From an uncultured Verrucomicrobiota bacterium (GTDB lineage: Bacteria; Verrucomicrobiota; Verrucomicrobiia; Limisphaerales; AAA164-E04), in NCBI GenBank assembly GCA_913061285.1, contig CAJXVR010000023.1, forward strand, positions 1 through 39,747: a stretch of 39,747 nucleotides of DNA, given 5' to 3'. This document shows, piece after piece, positions 1 through 39,747 of this stretch. A program made the position numbers and the translations under genes. The notes under the pieces were generated by a model, which saw only the letters and a program-made list of their open reading frames with translations, was not told the DNA's origin and made no database searches. Position 1 is the first letter of the stretch; each line of letters starts with the position of its first letter.

Positions 1-45
1 ACACTAGATCGCTCGTCGGCAGCGTCAGATGTGTATAAGAGACAG
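1..45 (+). other. Illumina Nextera adapter (non-biological)
   Basis: Bases 13-45 match the Nextera read-1 transposase adapter, including the 19-bp Tn5 mosaic end at 27-45. Bases 5-12 match the i5 index N501 (TAGATCGC) and 1-4 are the tail of the P5 primer. This is untrimmed library sequence retained by the assembler. Any reading frame running through it, including one starting at 31, is an artefact. Confidence 0.97.
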
Positions 46-536
46 CCATCCAAATCACCCACTCCAAGGGCTCGGGCTTGTGCCGCGGCTAAGGATTGTG
101 TCCCGAAGTCCAGAGCCCCTGCCCCGTCGTTAATCAATACGGCTGCAGGGCTTTCACCGCCAAAGCCCAGAAATAAGTCCAAGGCCTCGGAACGATCAAA
201 ATCGGCGACCTCAAACGTGGTTACGGGTCCAGCTGTCACCTCGCTCTCGCTCAGAATTTGGCCTTCAGCATCTACCCGAATAACCGACAACTCACCGTCC
301 TTTCGGAGCAAAATCACCTCAGGCACAGAATCTTGATCCATATCAACCAACTGAACCCGGGAAGCAGGCAAACCTGACTTCACAAGGCGCGGCGACAAGG
401 ACTGCGCCCTCGAAGACAACGACAACGAGCCACACAGAGCCGCGCCGATCGCCATACAAGCCGCTAGACGAGCAACTCCTGCCCTACAACCGCCAAACAA
501 CCCCATTCCAAACATGCGAATCTCAAACGTTCTCAT
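46..536 (-). CDS. Secreted FG-GAP/VCBS-repeat protein, N-terminal part only
   Basis: The gene runs off the left end of the biological sequence, so only about 163 N-terminal residues are present. From the ATG at 536 there is a basic N-region and a hydrophobic stretch (VARLAACMAIGAALCGSL) followed by SSRAQ, a plausible signal peptide. Then come FG-GAP/VCBS-type blades: VDMDQDSVPEVILLRKDG, VADFDRSEALDLFLGFGG and GVGDLDG, i.e. calcium-loop-like Asp-rich turns preceding beta strands. Such proteins are extracellular beta-propellers, often adhesive or ligand-binding; no catalytic residues are seen. The in-frame codons just before the start read ATG AGT TGA, so translation cannot begin further upstream in this frame. 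An internal ATG at 515 would still leave a signal peptide. No function beyond a secreted propeller can be stated. Confidence 0.75.
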
Positions 537-1011: not shown

Positions 1012-2964
1012 CTATGCGTCGTCGCCGATCTGAGTCTTCATCCAGCCAGCTGTATTGACCCCTTTCGCTTCGGGCAAAGGAAGAGCGACAACTTCTCCTT
1101 CATCCTCAAAGTAGAGGCCGAGCTCATCCAGACGAGCTAGCGCGTCGTCGATCGCCTCGGGGGATTGCTCCTGAAACTCAGTCCGCACACGCTCGAGACT
1201 GACCGGCTTATCCATCGCATCGAGAAGATCGGCCTCCAACCCGCTCAGCTCGTGGATTACCGTATCGCCATAGCGTCCATCTTGGATACTCGATCGGTTC
1301 GTACTCCTTCGGATCAAATCAGCGGTCTGCTGTTCATCCATCCGAGTCCAGGCCTGAAGTTCAGCGGCAAGTTTACGATGCAGCGAGCGCAAGGTTTCTG
1401 GCACCTGATGAACACGCGAAAAGTAATAGGCATAGTCGCCCGTCGAGAACCCACTGGCAGCTCTGTAGCCCTCAGATAGAAGAATATCATAGCGAGGTTC
1501 AGGATCTGATTCGGGCAACCCCCAGCGTTCCGGAGCGACCTGAAGCGGTGCGCCGCGAGTGATTTGAACCGGAATCTTACTCATCGGAGAATCCAAGTGA
1601 CGCAAACGCGGGACCATGCGCAGCATTCTACGATAGGCTTCGATCCCCTCTCCAGGAAAGGAGTGAAGCAAGTTATAAAAGACCTTAATGCCGACGGCCC
1701 GGCCAACCCGCATTAGATAAACGCAACGGGCTGCCCTGACACCCTTGTCCATCAAGCGCAGGATCTCAGATGAAAAACTCTCGATTCCCGGCTGAACGTC
1801 GACGAAGCCTGCATCCGCCAAGAGCTGCATGTTTTCCTCCTGCACATTCGCTTTAATCTCGCATGCTAGGCTATAGTCGCGGTTCGAAAGGGCGGGAATC
1901 AAGGTGCTGTAATAGGAGTGCGGCAGAATATAATCGGCAAAGCGGAAGCGTTTCTCCCCCCAGCGTTCAGCGAGTACGTCGAGCTGTTCTAGCGCTCGCT
2001 CGGGCGATTTCTGACGGTAGGCCAAATCGGCGTCATGAATTCCACAAAAGATACAGTGTTTCTTCGCCCCCCACCAGCAGCCCCGGGAATTCTCGACCGG
2101 CATCCCGAAGGTCGAGATATCGAGTTTATGGTCCTGTGACAAACGTTTTAAGTCATCAAACCAGTTGCTATAGTCAGGAATCGGAATCTCGTCCATTTTC
2201 CAACGTTGCGCGGGCTTCGTTCTTTGAGGCGCTCCATGAGGACCTCTAATCACCAGGCCAGGGACATCTTCGAGCGGAATCTGGCCTGCCGAAGCGCGTG
2301 CCAGCCCTTCGATCACCGGCTCACCTTCGTCAATGCAAACCGCATCGACCCACGGGAAAGCCCGAATCAACATCTCGGCGGTCGGACTCCTGACTGAGTA
2401 TCCACCGAGGGCCACAAGCCTCTCCGGCGATCGAGCCTTCAATGCCTTACCCAGCGCGATAGACGCGAATGTCTGATCGAAAACACAGGTCATCCCGTAC
2501 AAGGTGAAGGGTTCCGCCGCGAGCCGATCGGCGGTTTCTTCCAGCCAAGCTGGAATGGTTTCGTCTCGCAGCTTATCGATCCCAGCGGTCACCGCATCGA
2601 GATCCTCAACGTCACCATTGTTAAAGGTCGGAGACCACCAAAGCTCAGCAATCGTTTCTGTCACCAACTGGCGCCGCCGTCCGACGGGCTGAACATCCAG
2701 ACTACCGGTGAAGACGTAGTCATTGAGCGCCCAAATCTGAGCGAGTCCCACATAGGTTCCCTCACGAAGAAAGCGCAGCATCTCAAGGTTGGTATGCTCA
2801 ACCCGGCAATGAATCCCTTCAGCCGCTAGAACCGATTTCAGGATTGCAAGTCCAAGGTTCGGTTGAGTGATATTGGTCCAAGGCAATGAGCCCAGCCAAA
2901 CAGACGGTTCGCGCTTCGCCGCCACTGAGGCCTCAGGCCTTTGGTACTGAACGTCGCAGACCAT
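1012..2964 (-). CDS. RiPP maturation radical SAM C-methyltransferase-like enzyme
   Basis: A 650-aa radical SAM protein resembling the RiPP-maturation family TIGR03975 ('bacteriocin maturation radical SAM protein 1'), whose cobalamin-dependent members methylate unactivated carbons in peptide precursors. The N-terminal half (about 21-245) has a B12-binding-like Rossmann layout starting WLGSLPWTNITQPNLGLAIL. The cluster motif RGCWWGAKKHCIFCG has cysteines 296, 304 and 307 (CX7CX2C, the family form rather than CX3CX2C). PGIESFSSEILRLMDKGV (392-409) and FYNLLHSFPGE (429-439) fit the SAM barrel. Residues about 570-628 look like a small winged-helix domain that could bind a leader peptide. Length is usual for the family. 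The ATG overlaps the stop of the upstream gene by one base (TAATG), so the two are translationally coupled. No transporter, protease or classic small precursor gene lies nearby. Family assignment is strong; methylation activity is inferred. Confidence 0.85.
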   Translation of the reverse strand: MVCDVQYQRPEASVAAKREPSVWLGSLPWTNITQPNLGLAILKSVLAAEGIHCRVEHTNLEMLRFLREGTYVGLAQIWALNDYVFTGSLDVQPVGRRRQLVTETIAELWWSPTFNNGDVEDLDAVTAGIDKLRDETIPAWLEETADRLAAEPFTLYGMTCVFDQTFASIALGKALKARSPERLVALGGYSVRSPTAEMLIRAFPWVDAVCIDEGEPVIEGLARASAGQIPLEDVPGLVIRGPHGAPQRTKPAQRWKMDEIPIPDYSNWFDDLKRLSQDHKLDISTFGMPVENSRGCWWGAKKHCIFCGIHDADLAYRQKSPERALEQLDVLAERWGEKRFRFADYILPHSYYSTLIPALSNRDYSLACEIKANVQEENMQLLADAGFVDVQPGIESFSSEILRLMDKGVRAARCVYLMRVGRAVGIKVFYNLLHSFPGEGIEAYRRMLRMVPRLRHLDSPMSKIPVQITRGAPLQVAPERWGLPESDPEPRYDILLSEGYRAASGFSTGDYAYYFSRVHQVPETLRSLHRKLAAELQAWTRMDEQQTADLIRRSTNRSSIQDGRYGDTVIHELSGLEADLLDAMDKPVSLERVRTEFQEQSPEAIDDALARLDELGLYFEDEGEVVALPLPEAKGVNTAGWMKTQIGDDA

Positions 2965-3824
2965 TAGAATTTCTCCAATCCAGATCGATCTGTGACAGTT
3001 CGCAATCCTTCAAAACTGGCTTTCGTAGCCGTAACCACTAGTCCCACTACGATTGAATCCACCACCACTATCACTGTGATCCCCACCGCAATCGACACAG
3101 GCTCGGCAAATTGTCCACCACCCAACCCAGTGGAAGCCCCCTTCAGGATACGGTCGAATGCGGCGTCGCTCAGCTTGATATCGAGCGCCGCGGAAACCGA
3201 CGCCGGCTTGGCAAGGAACGAATCGGTGAATCGCCCATCTTCAAGAACACGATGCATGTAGTGCACCACTTCGCGTTGCACCGGATCGGTGATCCGATCG
3301 ATTCGCGAGGGAGCGAGGGAACGGAGCGTATTGATCCCTTCCTCATCCAAGTCGACATCCAGCTTATCAGCAATCTCGCGGGGATCCTCGAAGAGCTCCA
3401 ATACATTAACCTCCTGCTCGATCGCCCTACTAAGGAGCCGAACGGAAGTGCTATCAAGAACGCCAGAGGCTTTGAGTTCCTCAGGCGTGGGAAGCACATC
3501 AGGCTCAGGAGGCAAAGGAATTGGGGGTTTACCATCGGAACCACACGTGAAGCCTCCCTCTGGATCCGTATAAACCACCCCGCCATCGCCGTCGAGCGGA
3601 CCTAACGCCTGCTCAATCCGCTCGGTCAGCTGGGCCGCCAGTTCCGCAGCGGATTTCCTTAAGGCATCACTCTCTGCCCCTTTAGTCACTGAGATGACGG
3701 CTGTCAGGCGGTTAAGAGCATCGGCGAGATTTCGTGTTGCCAGATCGAGCGCCGGAATCCGGCGGGTACGTGATTTGTCGATCAGCAAAAATGGACCGTT
3801 AGCTGAGAAGATGAGTTTGCGCAT
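2964..3824 (-). CDS. 286-aa protein of unknown family, candidate radical SAM substrate or partner
   Basis: I do not recognise this family. The start at 3824 is chosen because GAAAGGA stands 6-7 bases before the ATG; an upstream in-frame ATG at 3914 lacks such a site. Visible parts: residues 26-75 form an amphipathic helix (LATRNLADALNRL...); 76-116 is Gly/Asp/Pro-rich with the only cysteine (C94); 142-170 and 200-228 are two copies of a motif P-x2-[IV]-x3-L-D-[VI]-x-L preceded by a Phe, similar in style to RiPP leader motifs; GGG at 235-237; then 243-266, where 14 of 24 residues are Val or Ile; then a polar tail of 20 residues. There is no N-terminal signal peptide. It is the first gene of a two-gene operon and its stop overlaps the radical SAM start, which argues for a stoichiometric or substrate relation. 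Alternatively it is simply a C-terminally membrane-anchored accessory protein. Confidence 0.75.
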   Translation of the reverse strand: MRKLIFSANGPFLLIDKSRTRRIPALDLATRNLADALNRLTAVISVTKGAESDALRKSAAELAAQLTERIEQALGPLDGDGGVVYTDPEGGFTCGSDGKPPIPLPPEPDVLPTPEELKASGVLDSTSVRLLSRAIEQEVNVLELFEDPREIADKLDVDLDEEGINTLRSLAPSRIDRITDPVQREVVHYMHRVLEDGRFTDSFLAKPASVSAALDIKLSDAAFDRILKGASTGLGGGQFAEPVSIAVGITVIVVVDSIVVGLVVTATKASFEGLRTVTDRSGLEKF

Positions 3825-4645
3825 TGTTTGTCCTTTCGATGTTGGGAGTTGGCAACGAGAATGCGGCACTCCGGGACCAGAGATTCGCATTGCGATAGAC
3901 CAAGCAAACGTCAAATTGGCAAGCCTCAGAATTGATCGGCATCGTCACTCCCCATTCCCCAGGGACGCCCCCGGAGACAAGCGGGCCCAATTTGTCCGAT
4001 TTCACGATTCGCTGTTCAATGGGGTGTTTTAAGAAATCCTTCATCTCAAGCGAATCGATTGGTACTGAACCCCTTTTATGACCTTAGACAGTGTCAATCA
4101 ACCCCCATCGATCAACGCATCCTATTTGGAGGCAGCGATGACGGCTTAGGGGTCCACTTATCTTTCTTTATCAAGAGAAGTATCGAAGCATTGCTTACTC
4201 AAAAAAGAATCAATCGATCAACCGGAAGACGCCAATACCGGATTCCAAAAATCATAGAACCCAGGGATCAGTCGAAGCGACGGTCGCAATTTAGAAGAAA
4301 CCAGCCAATCAATGGAGCGCCGCGTTCCTCTGAGAGATTGCTTCTTTAGCCGGATAGGCCAATTGGACGACTCGGTTCTTCAACGTTTCCAGCAGAATAA
4401 ATACCCGGTGACGATTTGTCGTCCCAGAACGAGCGAAGCTCCCAGAGCCCCATCGGACCATGAATCCCAATTATGCAAGGGAGGTAACTGCATCCTCTTT
4501 GCCTACTCGAAAGCCTCTTGGCTGGAACGGCTCGCAGTACGCTCGGTCCGACTCGGATCGACTCGGATCGACTCGGATCGACTCCCTCATCATTCGGATT
4601 GTTCACTGGTCTCCATACGAATCCACTCATTTCGTTGAGCAACCC
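3825..4645. other. Long intergenic stretch upstream of the radical SAM cassette
   Basis: About 820 bp without a credible gene; short open frames on both strands have shuffled, Arg/Ser-rich compositions and no ribosome-binding sites. It should contain the promoter of the leftward 286-aa gene; TTGACG near 3918-3923 (minus strand) is a possible -35 but I see no good -10 at the right spacing. It also contains the decamer tandem repeat at 4541-4590. I searched it for a small RiPP precursor ORF and found none. Confidence 0.5.
4541..4590. repeat. 10-bp tandem repeat
   Basis: Three perfect copies of ACTCGGATCG (4551-4580), preceded by a degenerate copy (GCTCGGTCCG, 4541-4550) and followed by a partial one beginning ACTC (4581-4584). 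The 10-bp period is close to one helical turn, so the copies face the same side of the DNA. It lies 60 bp beyond the terminator of the kinase-FHA operon. It may be replication slippage or a multi-site protein target. Confidence 0.8.
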
Positions 4646-4668
4646 AAAACGCATCGCTTGAGCGATGC
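4646..4668 (-). terminator. Intrinsic terminator of the kinase-FHA operon
   Basis: On the minus strand GCATCGC (4668-4662) and GCGATGC (4657-4651) form a perfect 7-bp stem with a 4-base loop (TCAA), followed by G and TTTT (4649-4646). It begins 30 bases after the FHA stop codon, the expected place for a Rho-independent terminator. Confidence 0.72.
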
Positions 4669-4697
4669 TCGAAGGTGCCCTACGGTTTCATCGCATT

Positions 4698-5315
4698 CTA
4701 GAGTTTCGAAAGAATCCAGCCGAAGGCAATGAAAAGGAAGATTCCGAGACCGGCATAAATCCATCGCCTCACACCTGGTGTGACGTTGACCGGATTGCGG
4801 AGCTCCTGATCGTTGGCGGGGTACGAATGACTCGTCTCTTCGATCGACGCGGGCGGGGCTACCTCGGTCGTGGGATTGGATACGATCGCGGAGGTACTAA
4901 TGGCAGGTTCGATCACAAAAGATTTGTTTGAAGCTGAGCCCTCCTGCAAGCACGGGCTTTGTTCGTTTTCGTAGCGCCGCAATTCATCCATCGCTGAGAT
5001 CGCAGTCGCCTCGTCGTTCATCGGACGAGAAAGATCGAGTCGTGCCTCGATTTGGCCGAAGCGGATAATGTCTCCGTGTCTGACTCCCTTCTGCGCACGG
5101 ACACGAACCCCATTGACAAAGACACCGTTGCGGGAACCGCGTTCCCGGACGATGATTTCTGATCCAGCCACAAGGAGTTCGCAATGCTCCCCAGAAACTG
5201 ATCGATGCCGGATCACTATCCGGTTCTTGCGAGAACGCCCCACACTGTATTTGCCGTCCGCTAATTCACAAAAGGGCTCTGCAACATTCGATAAAATAAA
5301 CCCAAGTCCTGGCAT
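4698..5315 (-). CDS. FHA-domain protein with C-terminal membrane anchor
   Basis: A 205-aa forkhead-associated protein, predicted to bind phosphothreonine peptides. The FHA core spans about 18-95 with the expected residues: G26-R27 in YSVGRS, S41 and H44 in SVSGEHCEL, S61-R62-N63-G64, and N68-G69. Residues 96-180 are polar and probably unstructured; 183-202 (RRWIYAGLGIFLFIAFGWIL) is a single transmembrane segment at the extreme C-terminus, so the FHA domain should face the cytoplasm as a tail-anchored protein. The start at 5315 has AGGAG nine bases upstream; the open frame continues further upstream but that part overlaps the kinase gene and is not family-like. It follows the kinase gene by 22 bp and ends at a terminator, so it is probably the kinase's membrane partner or substrate reader. 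Confidence 0.85.
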   Translation of the reverse strand: MPGLGFILSNVAEPFCELADGKYSVGRSRKNRIVIRHRSVSGEHCELLVAGSEIIVRERGSRNGVFVNGVRVRAQKGVRHGDIIRFGQIEARLDLSRPMNDEATAISAMDELRRYENEQSPCLQEGSASNKSFVIEPAISTSAIVSNPTTEVAPPASIEETSHSYPANDQELRNPVNVTPGVRRWIYAGLGIFLFIAFGWILSKL

Positions 5316-8255: not shown

Positions 8256-8621
8256 CAACTTTGGCAATCTAATCCACCATCCAAGGTAATAAAGGACGTT
8301 GGAAAGTGTATCAAACTGGCCGAGGGTCTATTCGTTTCGAGGTCCCAAGTCAATGTATCATCGGGATTCAAAATACCATCAACGCATAGCACTAGCTTTG
8401 GAGTCACCGCGAAGGTCGAATATTACGGGAGTCAGCACCCTGAATTTCGAACTAACGAAATTCAAACGCCCACAGACGAACAAGAGTTTTGTTTCAATGT
8501 CGTCGTTGATCGCCCCCGAAATTTCCACAGTTTGGATGGCACAGTCCAAGTGTTATGCGATAAGGATTTCCAATCGCCAACGATCACTCTTGAAAGCGAT
8601 TCGAGCCCAACACATCGTTGA
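8256..8621 (+). pseudogene. Possible gene remnant: start-less open frame
   Basis: The frame with codons beginning at 8256 stays open for 121 codons to the TGA at 8619 but has no ATG or GTG near its beginning and no TTG until late. Its translation is balanced and beta-rich (for example FGVTAKVEYYGSQHPEFRT, EFCFNVVVDRPRNFHSLDG, TITLESDSSPTHR), more protein-like than the overlapping frame that leads into the NTF2-like gene. It could be a decapitated gene fragment. It could also be chance: about 120 open codons is unusual but not impossible. No family recognised. The stretch also has to hold the promoters of the leftward kinase and the rightward NTF2-like gene. Confidence 0.3.
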
Positions 8622-8706
8622 ACATCTCGGCGTTTCAAGCCCGACTGATCTAGAACCCGCTTTAGATCAATTTGATTTACCGACAGAGACCGGTAGATTC
8701 GAGCTT

Positions 8707-9147
8707 GTGAACAAGCAAGAAACGCCGGTCGAAACATTCGCAACATTCCGCGACCAATTATCTCTCGCCAGCACGAATCGACTGGCAGATCTCTACGATC
8801 CAATAATCGAATTCAAGGACCCTATCAATCACGCCACCGGTCACGATCAACTGAAGAGAGTCTTTGACGGTCTTTTTAAACAACTCAAGAATATCCAATT
8901 CACAATCACTGCTGTCAGCGATGAAGTAGGATCGAGCTTCGTTCGTTGGCAAATGGACTACCAGTTTCGACGAAGGCTTCGCTCAATCGAGGGCGTCTCC
9001 TATGTCACATTCAACAACCAGGGTCTTGTAACACAACAAACTGACTACTGGGACGCTTCCTTTCCTATTTACGGCGAGTTCCCCCTCTTAGGCTTAGCGA
9101 TGAAAGGCGTGCGATCCGTCGTTGCCGTCAAACATCCGAAACCCTAG
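8707..9147 (+). CDS. NTF2/SnoaL-like protein, copy 1
   Basis: A cytoplasmic 146-aa protein of the NTF2-like (SnoaL) fold, with no signal peptide. The pattern LADLYDPIIEFKDPINHATG ... VRWQMDYQFRR ... IEGVSYVTFNNQGLVTQQTDYWDAS ... FPLLG is that of the small 'nuclear transport factor 2 family' proteins, whose cone-shaped pocket binds hydrophobic ligands; no reaction can be named. About two thirds of residues match copy 2 at 17686-18162. The start is uncertain. The frame is open back to 8299 (TTG), but similarity to copy 2 begins only near 8650; GTG at 8707 aligns with an ATG at 17731 in copy 2 and is used here. Transcribed away from the kinase operon. Confidence 0.7.
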   Translation: MNKQETPVETFATFRDQLSLASTNRLADLYDPIIEFKDPINHATGHDQLKRVFDGLFKQLKNIQFTITAVSDEVGSSFVRWQMDYQFRRRLRSIEGVSYVTFNNQGLVTQQTDYWDASFPIYGEFPLLGLAMKGVRSVVAVKHPKP

Positions 9148-17685: not shown

Positions 17686-18162
17686 ATGGCTCGATTTGAT
17701 TTCTCTAGAGAGACCGGTAGGTTCGGTCTTATGGAAAAGAAAGAATCGCCAATCCAAAAATTCGCAGCGTTCCTGGAACAATTCTCCCTAGACAGTACGG
17801 AGCTCCTGCAGGATTTTTACGATACGACGATCGAGTTCAAAGATCCAATCAATCAAGCGGGCGATCTCGAAGAACTGAAGAGAGTCTTTGCCGATCTCTT
17901 CAAGCAACTAAACGATGTTCAATTCACCATCACCGCCCTCAGTGAGAACGGCAGTGGGGGCTTCGTGCGCTGGCAGATGGACTACCGCTTTCGAAGGAGA
18001 CTTCGCACCATCGAAGGCGTCTCCTATGTCACCTTCAACGCCCACGGCCTTGTCACCAAACAGACGGACTACTGGGATGCTTCTTTTCCAATTTACGGCG
18101 AATTCCCCCTTCTCGGAGCCGCCATCCGTTACATCGTTTCCGTCAAGCACCCCAAAGCCTAA
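17686..18162 (+). CDS. NTF2/SnoaL-like protein, copy 2
   Basis: 158 aa from the ATG at 17686, or 143 aa from the ATG at 17731, which aligns with the chosen GTG start of copy 1. Same fold and motifs as copy 1: DFYDTTIEFKDPINQAG, VRWQMDYRFRRRLRTIEG, TDYWDASFPIYGEFPLLG and a VKHPKA end. The nucleotide match between copies extends upstream of the inner start (GAGACCGGTAG, then TTCG), so either that stretch encodes the N-terminus in both or a shared regulatory/leader segment was duplicated. Cytoplasmic; ligand unknown. It follows the TIGR03067 gene and converges on another small secreted-protein gene 20 bp away. Confidence 0.8.
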   Translation: MARFDFSRETGRFGLMEKKESPIQKFAAFLEQFSLDSTELLQDFYDTTIEFKDPINQAGDLEELKRVFADLFKQLNDVQFTITALSENGSGGFVRWQMDYRFRRRLRTIEGVSYVTFNAHGLVTKQTDYWDASFPIYGEFPLLGAAIRYIVSVKHPKA

Positions 18163-21281: not shown

Positions 21282-23948
21282 CTAAATCACATGGGCACGC
21301 GCTCCACGAGGGATCTGGCACCCCACGTGAGCGTTGGTATTCTGACGGGGAACCCAATCGCCAGAAAGCACATTGTGAAGGGCCTCACTCAACAAACTTG
21401 CCCAATTAGACTCCGGTTCTCCCGAAAGGCTGAGATCAAAATCTGGGGATCGACTGCGATCGGTAATATTCAGCGTCGGTACAAGCATATTCGCTGGAGC
21501 GGCACGATCAGAGGAAACGTGGAATATCACATCCACAACAGCCCCCAAACCGGTGATCATTTCCATTTGATTCCTTGAAAGCGATTCCATCACGTGCAGG
21601 CCAGGCTTTTCGGGGCGTTGAGCAAAACAGAGCGTCGCGTCGCTTGTCGTCGCCAAGCGCTCCGAGAGTCCTTTCGACTGACTCAAAACCACCGTTCCCT
21701 CTTGCTCCAAAAGGGATGAAGCGAGCTCACCAAGAGCCGCTACGAGCGAGGGTGCGATTTCCCCGCTAAGGGCAATCCCGAGGCGAGGACACGCAGATGA
21801 GCCAGATGAAACGTCGTCAGTCAGTCGACCATCAAACCAATCCTCTATGGCAGCAATCGTGCCTTCCGTCCCTCCGGCGTCCTGAATCGTAAGCCAACCA
21901 AACTGATTCGGATCGGTCGAATCGCAACGCTCGGAAGCAGAAATTTCAGGAAAGCCAATTTCCCCCCCCGTCATCGCTGCCTTGATGAAGCTCGGAGAGA
22001 CCATTTCACAACCCAACGAGAGAAACAAGCACGCCGCTACCTGAGAATGCCTCGAATAGCTCAGCATGAAATTCAACACCTCGGCACCGGTAGTCACGCC
22101 ACACCCCTCCGTGTTGGGAAGAACAACAAACCGGCTCACCCGTCCCCTAACAATAGGTTGCCCCGAATTCAACCGAGCAGCCGCCTGTTCTGCAGTAGCC
22201 ACGGAGCACCCGACCGTAGGTAGAATTAGGCCAACAGGTTGAATCCCGCACCGATAACGTTGCGGATTCGACCACTGAAAGCGAGCCTGCAGTGCGACAG
22301 GCAATCCCGACAAACGCGAAGGCACCGATTCGGCTTCGGAATCCGGGGCCTCATGGAAGAAGCGACGTCGCCACAAGAGGTCGATATTCTGCCGGCGCTG
22401 CTCTCCTTTCGTTCGCTCTCCCGAAGCGATCTTTACAATCTGATTGAGACTCTCCTTGGTCAAGTCAGCCATCGACTGCCCGTCAAGATACTGTCCTGCA
22501 TTAAGATCGATATCGCCCGCCATCATTTTATAACGATCGGTCGTATTGACGATCTTGACTGTCGGAACAATCGATGAATTAGTGGGACTGCCTCGCCCGG
22601 TCACAAAGAGGATAACGTTGCATCCAGAGGCCGCCTGACCGGTGTAGCTTGCGATGTCTCCTCCCATTCCATCCATAAAATGGAATCCCTGAGCCTTCAT
22701 TCGAGCCCCATACTCAATCACCTGTTCGATGGGAATGTCAGGATCACGTTTCACGGCAGCACCCAACGACTTAAGCGTGATATTATAAAGGCCTCCTAGC
22801 AGATTTCCCTCAGAAGGATTCTTGTCCACTTTTCCACCGTGCCACCCCAACTGCTGCTTGAACCGTTCAAGCATCGAAAGAAACTCTGTCGCAATCTCCG
22901 ATGAGGCAATGGACGAAAGCGTGTAATCTTCAGCCCCCGAAAGTTCGGGGGTTTCAGTTAGGTTTGCAGCACCCCCATGACAAATCACCTCCCGTGCAAT
23001 CGCCCCCGACAGAACGTTTCCGCTGATACCCGAAAACGCATCAGAGGCGCCGCACTGCAATCCAATCCGAAGTGAGCCAAGAGGCTGCGGCGTTCGCCGA
23101 TCTTGGTTCAGTCGTTCTACCAATTCAAGGACCAAGGCCGACGCCTCCTCGAGATCTCGTTCCACAGAATCTGACGCACTCATGAAGCGTTGACGTTCAG
23201 CAGGAATCCCTGAGCCGGCCATTCCTGAGCATAGCTCTGCATTGCTCAATTCCGCAGTCCTTCCACTATCGATCGCCACAAAACCTCCGACGTTAGGATT
23301 TGCCACCAAACCGGCGAGCGTGCGGATGGTTCGATTTCGTTCCACGCTCTCATCCTCTTCTCCCTCGGTATGCCGAATTCCTACGATGGAATCCACATTC
23401 TCCCACTCAGCACATCGATCTCGAAAGAGCGCCTCCAATCGTTTGACCAAGACGGAAGTCCCTGCCGAGGTACTCAGAATCACCAGATGATTACGCGTCC
23501 CAGTGCCGCGCTCCCCACGCTCAAACCCTGGGAAGCTAGGAGAATTCGAGTAACGAAAAACCTCCGCCGGTGGCCGCCAGGCTGCCTCATCAAATCTGAA
23601 TTCAGGAATCTCATCATCAAAGTTTGGTTCCCCAGGAATTCGAAGTGAGGTGTAGCGAAGGCCCTCTTGAATCGAGAGACGGAACAGCACCTTACGATTA
23701 CACAGATACTCTCCCGCTCTAATGTTGCGCATAGCCCTCCCAAAGGGATAATTCCACGAGGTTATCAAATCTCCCTTTTCGATATCGACGGGAGCGAAGC
23801 GATGTCCAACGAGCACATCGTGCTCAAGCTGAATCGACGTGTCCTCGTGTCTCATCAAGACACCTTTCTTCAGGTCTCGCAGAGCAATGACGGCATTGTC
23901 ATTCGGCGATGGAAAGCGAGCAATCTCGCTCATTGAAAGCGGCATCAT
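21282..23948 (-). CDS. uxaA: Double-length altronate dehydratase (UxaA family) with two modules
   Basis: 888 aa, against about 500 for usual UxaA, which dehydrates altronate to 2-keto-3-deoxygluconate. Residues 12-90 are the SAF domain ([32 protein letters not shown]). Module 1 (about 140-515) keeps the C-terminal catalytic part: [17 protein letters not shown] (295-311), [48 protein letters not shown] and [12 protein letters not shown]; but its preceding domain has lost the family cysteine motifs. Module 2 (about 565-865) repeats the family pattern: PTVGCSVAT (C581), NTEGCGVTT (C616), SLGCEMVSP (C647) and [11 protein letters not shown] are present while the Cys-Gly-x-Ser-Asp motif is gone. 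The two modules together supply one full motif set. Start overlaps the uxaB stop by ATGA. The gene symbol reflects family and operon context. Confidence 0.85.
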
Positions 23949-25441
23949 CCTCGTTGAACCGGAGTCGCAGAGGTCGACTGAAGATTCTTGAGAGCGACGG
24001 GCATCCCGTCATCAAGAATTTGCCGCATATGATTCACAACAGCATCTCGCAATCCGGAAATGTTGTTCAAATCCTGTTTCCAAAGGGGTTCATAAGCCAG
24101 CACCTTACTCACAAGACGCGGCAACGCCCCGACGGTTCCATCGTAAGCTCGCCAGGCATCTGCGTAGAGCGCAACTATGTCTGGACTATCCGAGCACTCA
24201 AATCTCTCCCCGCCTCGCTCTCCTCGATAAAAGATCATCATCGCGGCTAACGAGAAGGACAGACGCCTGGAAACCTGCCCTTGATTCGCCTGCCCATCGA
24301 GCAGACTTGGCAACACGCGCGTTTCCCATTTGCTCATCGAGTTGAGCGAGATAGCCCGCCATTCGTGCCGAATATAGGGGTTATAGAATCGCTCAAGGAT
24401 TTTTTGTGAAAAGTCATGAAGGAAACCTTGGTCCCCCGGAATATTCGGAACGATCTCCTCCGCTACCATGTCGCGCATGAAGGAGCCAACCGTCTCGTCC
24501 TCAATAGATTCTCGAACTGTTTCGAACCCACAAAGATACGCGACAGCCATCGAACCCGTGTGAGCTCCGTTGAGAATACGCACCTTTTGATCTCGTATCT
24601 CACGCTGCGTTGCCTCGTCAACGAAACGGACATTCAATCCAGCACTCGCAGCGGGGAATTCTCCCTCTACCCATTCAGGCGCCTTAATCACCCAGTTGTG
24701 ATAATACTCGCCGACAACGATCAATTGGTCTTCATAACCCAAACGTTCGTGATGCTCCGCGATATTATCGCGAGGGAATCCCGGTACAATCCGATCAACA
24801 AGTGTTGAGCAAAAAGCACAGCAATGTTCAACCCAATTGACAAACGCTCTCCCTAGATTCCACGACTCAGCATGACGCAATACATACTCCCTAAGCTTGT
24901 CCCCATTGTTCTCGATCAACTCGCAAGCAATGACAATTAAGCCCTTATCCGGAGCCCCTTTGAAAGTCCGAAAACGATGATATAGCAAGGCGGTCATCTT
25001 TCCCGGAAACGAAGGCTGAGGTTCCATATCTAGCGTCTCACCCTCCGCCCACTGAATACCAGCTTCGGTCGTGTTCGAGATCACAAAACGCAAGTCTGCA
25101 TTCTCGATCAGCGTCCGATAGGCATCAAAGTCCACATAGGGATTGATACAGCGGGATACACACTCAATGAGTTCGGTCTCTCGCACAGGAGTCCCCTCAT
25201 TCATCCCCTCAAGTACAAGATGGTAGAGTCCATCCTGCTGGTTAATAAGATCCCCAAGACCTTGAGCGATCGGTTGAACAATCACCACCGAGGCGTCAAA
25301 ATCGAGGCGCTCGTTCATGCGTTGAATCATCCAATCAACAAAGGCACGAAGGAAATTACCTTCGCCAAACTGCAAGATTCGTTCGGGACGTTTGGTTGTA
25401 TTCGCTACGGTCTCTCGGTTTAGTTTTTTCATCTTCTTCAT
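23945..25441 (-). CDS. uxaB: Tagaturonate reductase
   Basis: 498 aa of the mannitol dehydrogenase superfamily; reduces D-tagaturonate to D-altronate with NADH in the cytoplasm. The N-terminus [27 protein letters not shown] carries the nucleotide-binding [10 protein letters not shown] (25-34) characteristic of UxaB. K286, N291 and H294 in KVRILNGAH fit the catalytic Lys-x4-Asn-x2-His of the superfamily; [20 protein letters not shown] fits the C-terminal domain. Start at 25441 ([10 protein letters not shown]) matches the family N-terminus; ATG at 25432 is an alternative, and the frame is open back to 25558 but that extension is not conserved-looking. Middle gene of eda-uxaB-uxaA: 165 bp after eda and overlapping uxaA by four bases. 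Confidence 0.93.
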
Positions 25442-25606
25442 ACAGCGAAGCGAGTTCTTATTAGACTCGACTTCTGAAAATTCGTCCCCCAAACAGGGCT
25501 GGTTCAATATAGAACGTATCTTGTAACTCAGGCCCTCGGGATACCAGCGACACCTCAATGTTCAGTAGGGCCGCTCAACCAGTCGTGAAGCCCGTCGCAG
25601 GAGAGA

Positions 25607-26266
25607 CTAGCGATCTAGCCGAGTTCTGTTCCCCCCGCTGAGCGATGCTTGGCAAGAAACCAATCCTACCGCCTCGACGACAAGACGCTCAATTTCCTGA
25701 AAGTCGCCAGCATGCAGCAACTCAGGCCTCACCATCCAGCTCCCGCCGCAGGCCGCGACACAGGGAAGTGAGGTATAGTCTAAAAGGTTCTTCGCAGTGA
25801 TGCCTCCGGTCGGTATGAAACGCAGTTCCCCGTATGGGGCACTAAACGCTTTCAATGTCGTCACACCACCAATGGCTTCAGCTGGAAAGAACTTCACAAG
25901 CTCCAACCCAAACTCGAGCGCCAGTTCCAAGTCTGTGGGACTCGACGTTCCAGGGAACACTGGAATGTCATTCTCCAGGCACCAAGCAACCGTTCTTGGA
26001 TTAAAGCCTGGGGTGACGACAAACGTAGCCCCGGCATCAATTGCCGCCTTGGCCTGGTCGGGATTGTGAACCGTCCCCACACCCAGTAGCAGATTTTCTC
26101 GTCTCGCCATCCGCTTGATCACTCCTAGCGCGGCTTCGGTACGCAGGGTCACTTCCGCACAAGGCAATCCACCGCCACAAAGGGCATCCGCCAAGGGACC
26201 CGCATGTTCAACCGAATCAACGGCCAAAACCGGGATAATCTTTAGAGTTTCAATTCGCTCAATCAT
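25607..26266 (-). CDS. eda: KDPG/KHG aldolase
   Basis: 219 aa; cleaves 2-keto-3-deoxy-6-phosphogluconate to pyruvate and glyceraldehyde 3-phosphate, the last step of the uronate pathway. The Schiff-base lysine K125 lies in VKFFPAE, and the catalytic glutamate E38 in AEVTLRT. Other family motifs: GVGTV (62-66), TPGFNP (85-90), FPGTSSPTDLELAL, PTGGI (152-156) and GGSWM. Length is normal. It is the first gene of the leftward operon; the 236 bp in front are shared with the rightward histidine kinase. The kinase (KdgK) needed between UxaA and Eda is not in this window. Confidence 0.95.
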   Translation of the reverse strand: MIERIETLKIIPVLAVDSVEHAGPLADALCGGGLPCAEVTLRTEAALGVIKRMARRENLLLGVGTVHNPDQAKAAIDAGATFVVTPGFNPRTVAWCLENDIPVFPGTSSPTDLELALEFGLELVKFFPAEAIGGVTTLKAFSAPYGELRFIPTGGITAKNLLDYTSLPCVAACGGSWMVRPELLHAGDFQEIERLVVEAVGLVSCQASLSGGNRTRLDR

Positions 26267-38851: not shown

Positions 38852-39714
38852 TTATTCGCCGAAGGCCCCCAGGCTCTGGAGTGCTTGAATTGCACTGGGA
38901 TATCGAGGGTCAATCTCTAGGGCGCTCTTCAGGGCACCAATCCCTGGCTCTTTGTCTCCTAGGGCAATCAAGGACAATCCAAGTTTGGTCAGAGTCGCGG
39001 CATTTTTGGCCCCAAGCGAAATTGCCTTTTGATAGGATGCCACGGCAGCCCGGTGGTCTTTTTGAAGAGCCTGGAGATTGCCTAATCCATAGTGAGGATA
39101 TGGCATTCGCGGATCGAGCGCCATAACCGTGCGATAACCGGCTTCCGACTCCTCAAGGCGCCCCCTGGCTCCATAGGCTTTCGCCAAATTGAGCTGCCCG
39201 ATCACCGACTTCGGATTGAGCTCAACTCCCTTCTCCATGTGCTGAATTGCCTCATCGTATTGCCTCATCGAAGCCAACACAGATCCAAGGCTAAGATAGG
39301 CCTCATGATACTCCGGGTTGATGCTAATCACTCGCTTCAATCGAGCGATGGCACTTTCCACCTCTCCTCGCATTTGCTCAATGGTAGCAAGGTTAATCAA
39401 TGCCGTTGCATGATTCGGATCAATACTAATCGCCTTCTCGAAGAGTGCTTCGGCCTCATCTACTCGTTTTTGATTGAGGAAGATCGCCCCAAGTCCTGTC
39501 AAGGCGCGCCCATATTCTGGATCAATACGAACGGCATTCTGATAGAATTCAATCGCCTGTTCCAACTGGCCCTGTTGGGCGGCAGATTTCGCCTGATTGT
39601 AGAACTCACGAGCCGTTCGCAATCCTTCTTCCGGCCGAATCAATTCATAAATGCGCTGGGATTCTTCAGGAAATCCGTTGATGCCAAAGAGCGTGGCGTA
39701 ATCACCCAAATAGG
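38852..39714 (-). CDS. Tetratricopeptide-repeat protein, C-terminal part
   Basis: The frame is open to the adapter junction at 39714, so the N-terminus is missing; the TTG at 39709 is not a believable start. The visible 287 residues hold about seven TPR units in register: AAQQGQLEQAIEFYQNAVRIDPEYGRAL, LNQKRVDEAEALFEKAISIDPNHATAL, MRGEVESAIARLKRVISINPEYHEAY and so on, ending SLGAFGE. TPRs bind partner proteins; no enzyme domain is seen. The first part (FPEESQRIYELIRPEEGLRTA) is not TPR and may be the end of another domain. Converges with the ECF sigma gene. Confidence 0.85.
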
Positions 39715-39747
39715 CTGTCTCTTATACACATCTGACGCTGCCGACGA
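39715..39747 (-). other. Illumina Nextera adapter (non-biological)
   Basis: Exact reverse complement of bases 13-45: Tn5 mosaic end at 39715-39733 followed by the rest of the read-1 adapter. Same artefact as at the left end; the true sequence stops at 39714. Confidence 0.97.

Follow-up and report, generated by a model that had tools for sequence, protein, structure and literature searches.

The DNA analysed here (the window) is a 39,747-nucleotide contig of an uncultured Verrucomicrobiota bacterium, and close to one of its ends a gene for a putative radical SAM C-methyltransferase directly follows a gene for a partner protein of 286 aa (Table 1). The positions of both reading frames, the TAATG overlap between them and the radical SAM motif GCWWGAKKHCIFCG, as given in the original prediction, were all re-found in the sequence. 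At the junction, TTGGAGAAATTCTAATGGTC, the TAA stop of the partner overlaps the ATG start of the enzyme, so the two genes are a translationally coupled pair, as had been claimed. The enzyme start is provided with GGAG as a ribosome site, and the partner ATG has a ribosome-site-like GAAAGGA upstream. Codon usage is normal and similar in the two genes; the partner, at 0.203 bits per codon vs 0.17–0.19 in neighbouring genes, is equally gene-like, and the other forward frames over it have negative codon-usage scores.

Table 1. Coordinates of the features at the locus (window numbering).
Feature	Position	Strand	Remarks
FG-GAP gene, next downstream of the enzyme	3-536	-	Cut off at contig end
Radical SAM C-methyltransferase gene (TIGR03975)	1012..2964	-	650 aa, Cx7Cx2C
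TAATG stop/start overlap coupling both genes	2962..2966	-	Sequence
Orphan partner gene, candidate oversized precursor/substrate	2964/2967..3824	-	286 aa
Val/Ile-rich C-terminal segment, candidate core	3021..3098	-	Residues 243-268; 14/25 V or I
Candidate docking domain, weak Os1348/NHLP-clan (NF038399) match	3291..3437	-	Residues about 130-178, below cut-off
Terminator-like hairpin upstream, between the pair and the FHA gene	4651..4668	-	Not above chance number in region

The absence of a short precursor gene beside the pair, also part of the original prediction, was borne out, in that the flanks 537-1011 and 3825-4700 contain no plausible one and no precursor-like ORF of at least 20 aa. Neither a protease nor a transporter is visible. 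The operon is directed towards the contig end, where only about 1 kb of sequence is left and the FG-GAP gene is truncated, so that the lack of further genes on that side holds only for this short stretch. Moreover, an Illumina Nextera transposase adapter is present at both contig ends (window 1-45, where it is found at base 13, and 39715-39747), and the ORFs at 3-536 (minus strand) and 39092-39745 (plus strand) run into it and therefore both carry artefactual residues (CLLYTSDAAD). On the upstream side, an attempted empty-site comparison gave only distant FHA-domain matches to the FHA protein in genomes of the same family. The gap upstream of the pair also contains TCGGATCGAC three times in tandem (window about 4550-4585).

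The enzyme and its family in the phylum

The enzyme matches TIGR03975, the family of RiPP maturation radical SAM C-methyltransferases, with 449.7 bits (cut-off 281.85, E 1.6e-134) over positions 2-606 of 606 and, judged by this profile, is a member of that family, in agreement with the original prediction. In the alignment, GCWWGAKKHCIFCG is the Cx7Cx2C iron-sulfur cluster motif, with all cluster-binding cysteines kept, and the Pfam radical SAM domain is above its cut-off. The predicted B12-like domain is present as a B12-binding-like domain, whose Pfam match is weak (21.2 bits, cut-off 32.1) and is weak in the relatives too. The Cx7Cx2C motif is also carried by PoyC, which methylates Ile and Val in polytheonamide (PMC11285071). 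The window enzyme shares with the TIGR03975 enzymes PoyB and PoyC of polytheonamide a full-length HMM match, a B12-binding-like domain, this motif and a similar length, and it has a Val/Ile-rich candidate substrate beside it.

In contrast, the enzyme has FCGIHD and GGYSVRS where its TIGR03975 relatives have FCGLNG and GGANCEG, and its identity to all relatives found is 24–30%. Among 74 near-invariant family columns, which were defined from 15 relatives bearing CWWG, it keeps 55 and deviates at 19, whereas the relatives, tested likewise by leaving each out in turn, deviate at 0–10. It is situated on the longest branch of a tree of 22 sequences, which does not settle its place, and by these comparisons it is the most divergent among the 22 sampled relatives; with 19 of 74 near-invariant positions changed, its chemistry may differ from that of the family. 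In addition, the winged-helix-like region of the TIGR03975 family aligns with the C-terminal 80 residues of the enzyme (domain about residues 570-635), an alignment that is PqqD-like by eye and for which Pfam gives no match. C-terminally fused RREs in proteusins have been reported by RRE-Finder (PMC7470986).

TIGR03975 is found above cut-off in 4 of 320 genomes of the order and 12 of 388 of the phylum. NHLP precursors are present in seven of the 388 phylum genomes, five of which also have TIGR03975 (p 2e-7), and in four of these five the two share a contig and are only a few kb apart; thus, NHLP-type precursors mostly accompany TIGR03975 in this phylum. In the family of the window genome, G008 (L069, G008:C144) carries a proteusin cluster with TIGR03975, two PoyD-type epimerases and a 224-aa precursor made of two tandem NHLP leaders and a Val-rich core. 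In the same order, G057 (L070:1957-2877, G057:C78) encodes a 306-aa precursor-like protein without a Pfam family, in which a repeated ACGAAACGA-type Cys/Ala-rich tail comes after LSDEMLEQVAGG, and which is accompanied by a radical SAM enzyme, TIGR03975 and a C39-ABC (peptidase-ABC) exporter. Since precursors of 224 and 306 aa thus stand beside TIGR03975 in the same order, the size of the partner is not the anomaly, and the original view that a precursor so large would be exceptional is not supported.

Proteusin clusters such as that of G008 and the polytheonamide-like one of G865 resemble the window pair in combining TIGR03975 with a long structured precursor that has a Val-rich end. The pair, with its precursor candidate of 286 aa, differs from them in lacking a PoyD epimerase, an above-cut-off NHLP leader and an AVAGG-type junction. 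The G865 cluster (L057, G865:C6:224000-240000), from the same phylum, has three TIGR03975 enzymes and two NHLP precursors, the core of one of which is TITVVGVGIAAVTVNTGANVNQTANGNINVNANVNVQVNMSVQTTTTSTN; a DUF4135 (LanM-type dehydratase) protein and one more radical SAM-like protein are also encoded there. As a separate observation, five loci of Colwellia/Thalassotalea (L002, L004, L006, L009, L010) share a recurrent cassette of TIGR03975, a 57–64-aa peptide and a haem-oxygenase-like iron enzyme (Haem_oxygenas_2 in L002), with a papain-like protease, recognised by eye, at most of them; the L002 peptide is aroma-sacti-like.

The partner protein and its Val/Ile-rich tail

Searches of 58 close relatives, 384 class genomes and 388 phylum genomes, and of IMG/VR viral contigs and plasmids, gave no convincing relative of the partner, and a search of its own genome at E <= 0.001 gave no match beyond the partner itself; by sequence similarity it is an orphan within the genomes, viral contigs and plasmids searched. 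A single class-level match, to a RecG fragment, was unconvincing. Three phylum-level matches concern residues 182-239 (window about 3108-3281, minus strand), which weakly resemble the second ATPase region of ClpC/ClpB (LEDGRFTDS ... KGASTGLGGG); the pairwise p of about 2e-6 is near chance given the searches made, so that kinship was set aside as probably a chance result of searching about 388 genomes, and a PDB search with the partner gave no Clp match. Comparison with profiles of defence-system and phage families gave nothing of note. Structure predictions for the full partner and for residues 118-230 were of low confidence, and Foldseek returned nothing below E 2.

The best curated-family match of the partner is the Os1348 NHLP-clan domain (NF038399) at residues 141-178 (E 1.5e-4), with 21.8 bits (23.4 for the fragment) against a curated cut-off of 40, which is short of membership. 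In a genome-wide Os1348 search, the partner ranks second, behind an M3-type peptidase fragment, and because that fragment scores as well, the match is a hint rather than membership. The likeness to the Os1348 family (Pseudomonas sp. Os17) is confined to one short, helical part of the partner. Os1348 itself has 85 aa and is encoded beside a GNAT, a putative peptidase and a SagB-like dehydrogenase, with no radical SAM enzyme (PMC7726476). A search with TIGR03793 (NHLP leader) gave no match to the partner, in which a nitrile-hydratase-like leader is only weakly hinted at.

A proposed leader/core junction, LSDAAFDRILKG, fits a pattern drawn up post hoc. It is not supported by a matrix built from genuine junctions (LSDxELxxVAGG type), on which the partner scores 2.65, a value reached by 2038 of 3000 shuffles, vs 24–37 for the training junctions. 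A tandem NHLP-like repeat in residues 128-230 is attractive by eye and not significant (p 0.08–0.12). The own genome, a MAG about 89% complete, contains no TIGR04517 (PoyD-type epimerase) match at E up to 1 and no convincingly scoring NHLP precursor; a PoyD-type epimerase is not needed by all proteusins. As two defining proteusin features, the NHLP leader and the junction, were looked for and not found, the partner is not established as a proteusin precursor, and it may work like one.

The tail itself, VSIAVGITVIVVVDSIVVGLVVTAT (residues 243-267), tops 763 ORFs, namely those of the window and of all fetched loci, in Val plus Ile content over 25 residues, and, as in a proteusin core, its composition is rich in residues that such enzymes modify. 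The runners-up, at 12 of 25, are the NHLP cores of G008 and G646 beside TIGR03975 and one membrane-protein-like N-terminus, and the near-identical G636-type cores come after at 11 of 25; three of the four rows after the tail are filled by two genuine NHLP precursor cores adjoining TIGR03975 enzymes, which come from same-family and same-phylum genomes. For Val alone, the tail is second of the 763 ORFs, with only the G008 core higher. The local alignment between the tail and the G008 core is better than 99.6% of shuffles; five cores were compared with the tail and that of G008 did best, so the value becomes about 0.02 after correction. The partner is the best substrate candidate, since its tail, rich in Val and Ile, is similar to the genuine cores on which C-methyltransferases act; this is in line with the role of natural substrate or essential partner originally assigned to it.

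Possible roles of the pair

The reading we favour, with about even confidence, is that the pair is a two-gene proteusin-like cassette, in which the partner is an oversized precursor whose tail is C-methylated by the enzyme. The helical first 230 or so residues of the partner would act as a leader/docking protein and the Val/Ile-rich segment from about residue 233 as the substrate. The enzyme would bind the leader, possibly via its C-terminal winged-helix-like domain, and methylate unactivated carbons of Val and Ile in the tail, as PoyC does, with SAM as the methyl source and methylcobalamin as the carrier, after which the leader would be cut off. In this cassette reading, the pairing of the genes, the family of the enzyme, the translational coupling and the composition of the tail are directly observed; we infer the partner as the substrate, the methylation of its tail, the later removal of its leader and the binding of that leader by the last domain of the enzyme. 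The TIGR03975 score, the PoyC-type motif, the coupling, the tail, the co-occurrence of NHLP and TIGR03975, the weak Os1348 match and the lack of a flanking precursor count for it. The sub-cut-off level of the Os1348 match, the failed junction matrix, the absence of PoyD and NHLP from the genome and of a protease or transporter, the non-significant repeats, the poor structure model, the 19 deviations of the enzyme and the membrane-segment-like tail count against it.

Other roles of the partner have to be weighed. Mmp10, which acts on methyl-coenzyme M reductase, is a case of in-place protein modification, and it is conceivable, although unlikely, that the partner is likewise a whole membrane-anchored protein that is C-methylated in place, at its hydrophobic tail or another site, and never cleaved. 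In its hydropathy (2.71 over 19 residues) the tail resembles a membrane segment, the partner is large, and neither a protease nor an exporter nor a clear cleavage site is seen; however, the hydropathy of the G008 proteusin core is the same (2.66), so this signal does not discriminate a core from a membrane segment, the tail contains a single Leu, lacks Phe and carries an Asp in its middle, and TIGR03975 is a RiPP family. There is a comparably small chance that the partner is a scaffold, docking or immunity protein and that the true precursor is encoded elsewhere or past the contig end, which is consistent with the short downstream sequence, with several other TIGR03975 loci of the phylum (L063-L066) that likewise have no adjacent precursor, and with the weak, helical-domain nature of the resemblances of the partner. 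Such a role would leave the Val/Ile-rich tail unexplained, and the own genome, as far as the MAG covers it, offers no convincing NHLP precursor.

The pair might also be a decaying remnant of a RiPP cluster, with a drifted enzyme and a degenerate or chimeric partner gene, which we regard as quite improbable. The long branch and the 19 deviating conserved sites of the enzyme, the orphan status of the partner and the sporadic occurrence of the family in the order would agree with decay, whereas the retention of all cluster-binding cysteines, the two open frames, the normal and similar codon usage and the intact ribosome sites argue against it.

Within the cassette reading, a further and more tentative step, rather doubtful at present, is that a divergent TIGR03975 enzyme and a protein-sized orphan precursor with a methylated tail represent a new branch of C-methylated RiPPs, NHLP-leaderless and epimerase-free, in the form of a two-gene cassette. 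If the enzyme does act on the partner, standard leader-based genome mining would overlook some substrates of C-methylating radical SAM enzymes, and the pair would be an unusually simple enzyme/substrate combination for methylating unactivated Val/Ile carbons, as well as a means of testing which features the C-terminal domain of TIGR03975 recognises without an NHLP leader.

Elsewhere in the window, hexuronate catabolism genes (altronate dehydratase-like, tagaturonate reductase-like and KDPG-aldolase-like), assigned by eye from the translations, occupy 21282-26266 on the minus strand and adjoin an AraC-type regulator. Moreover, two SnoaL-like paralogues, similar in sequence, are located about 9 kb apart at 8299-9147 and 17686-18162.
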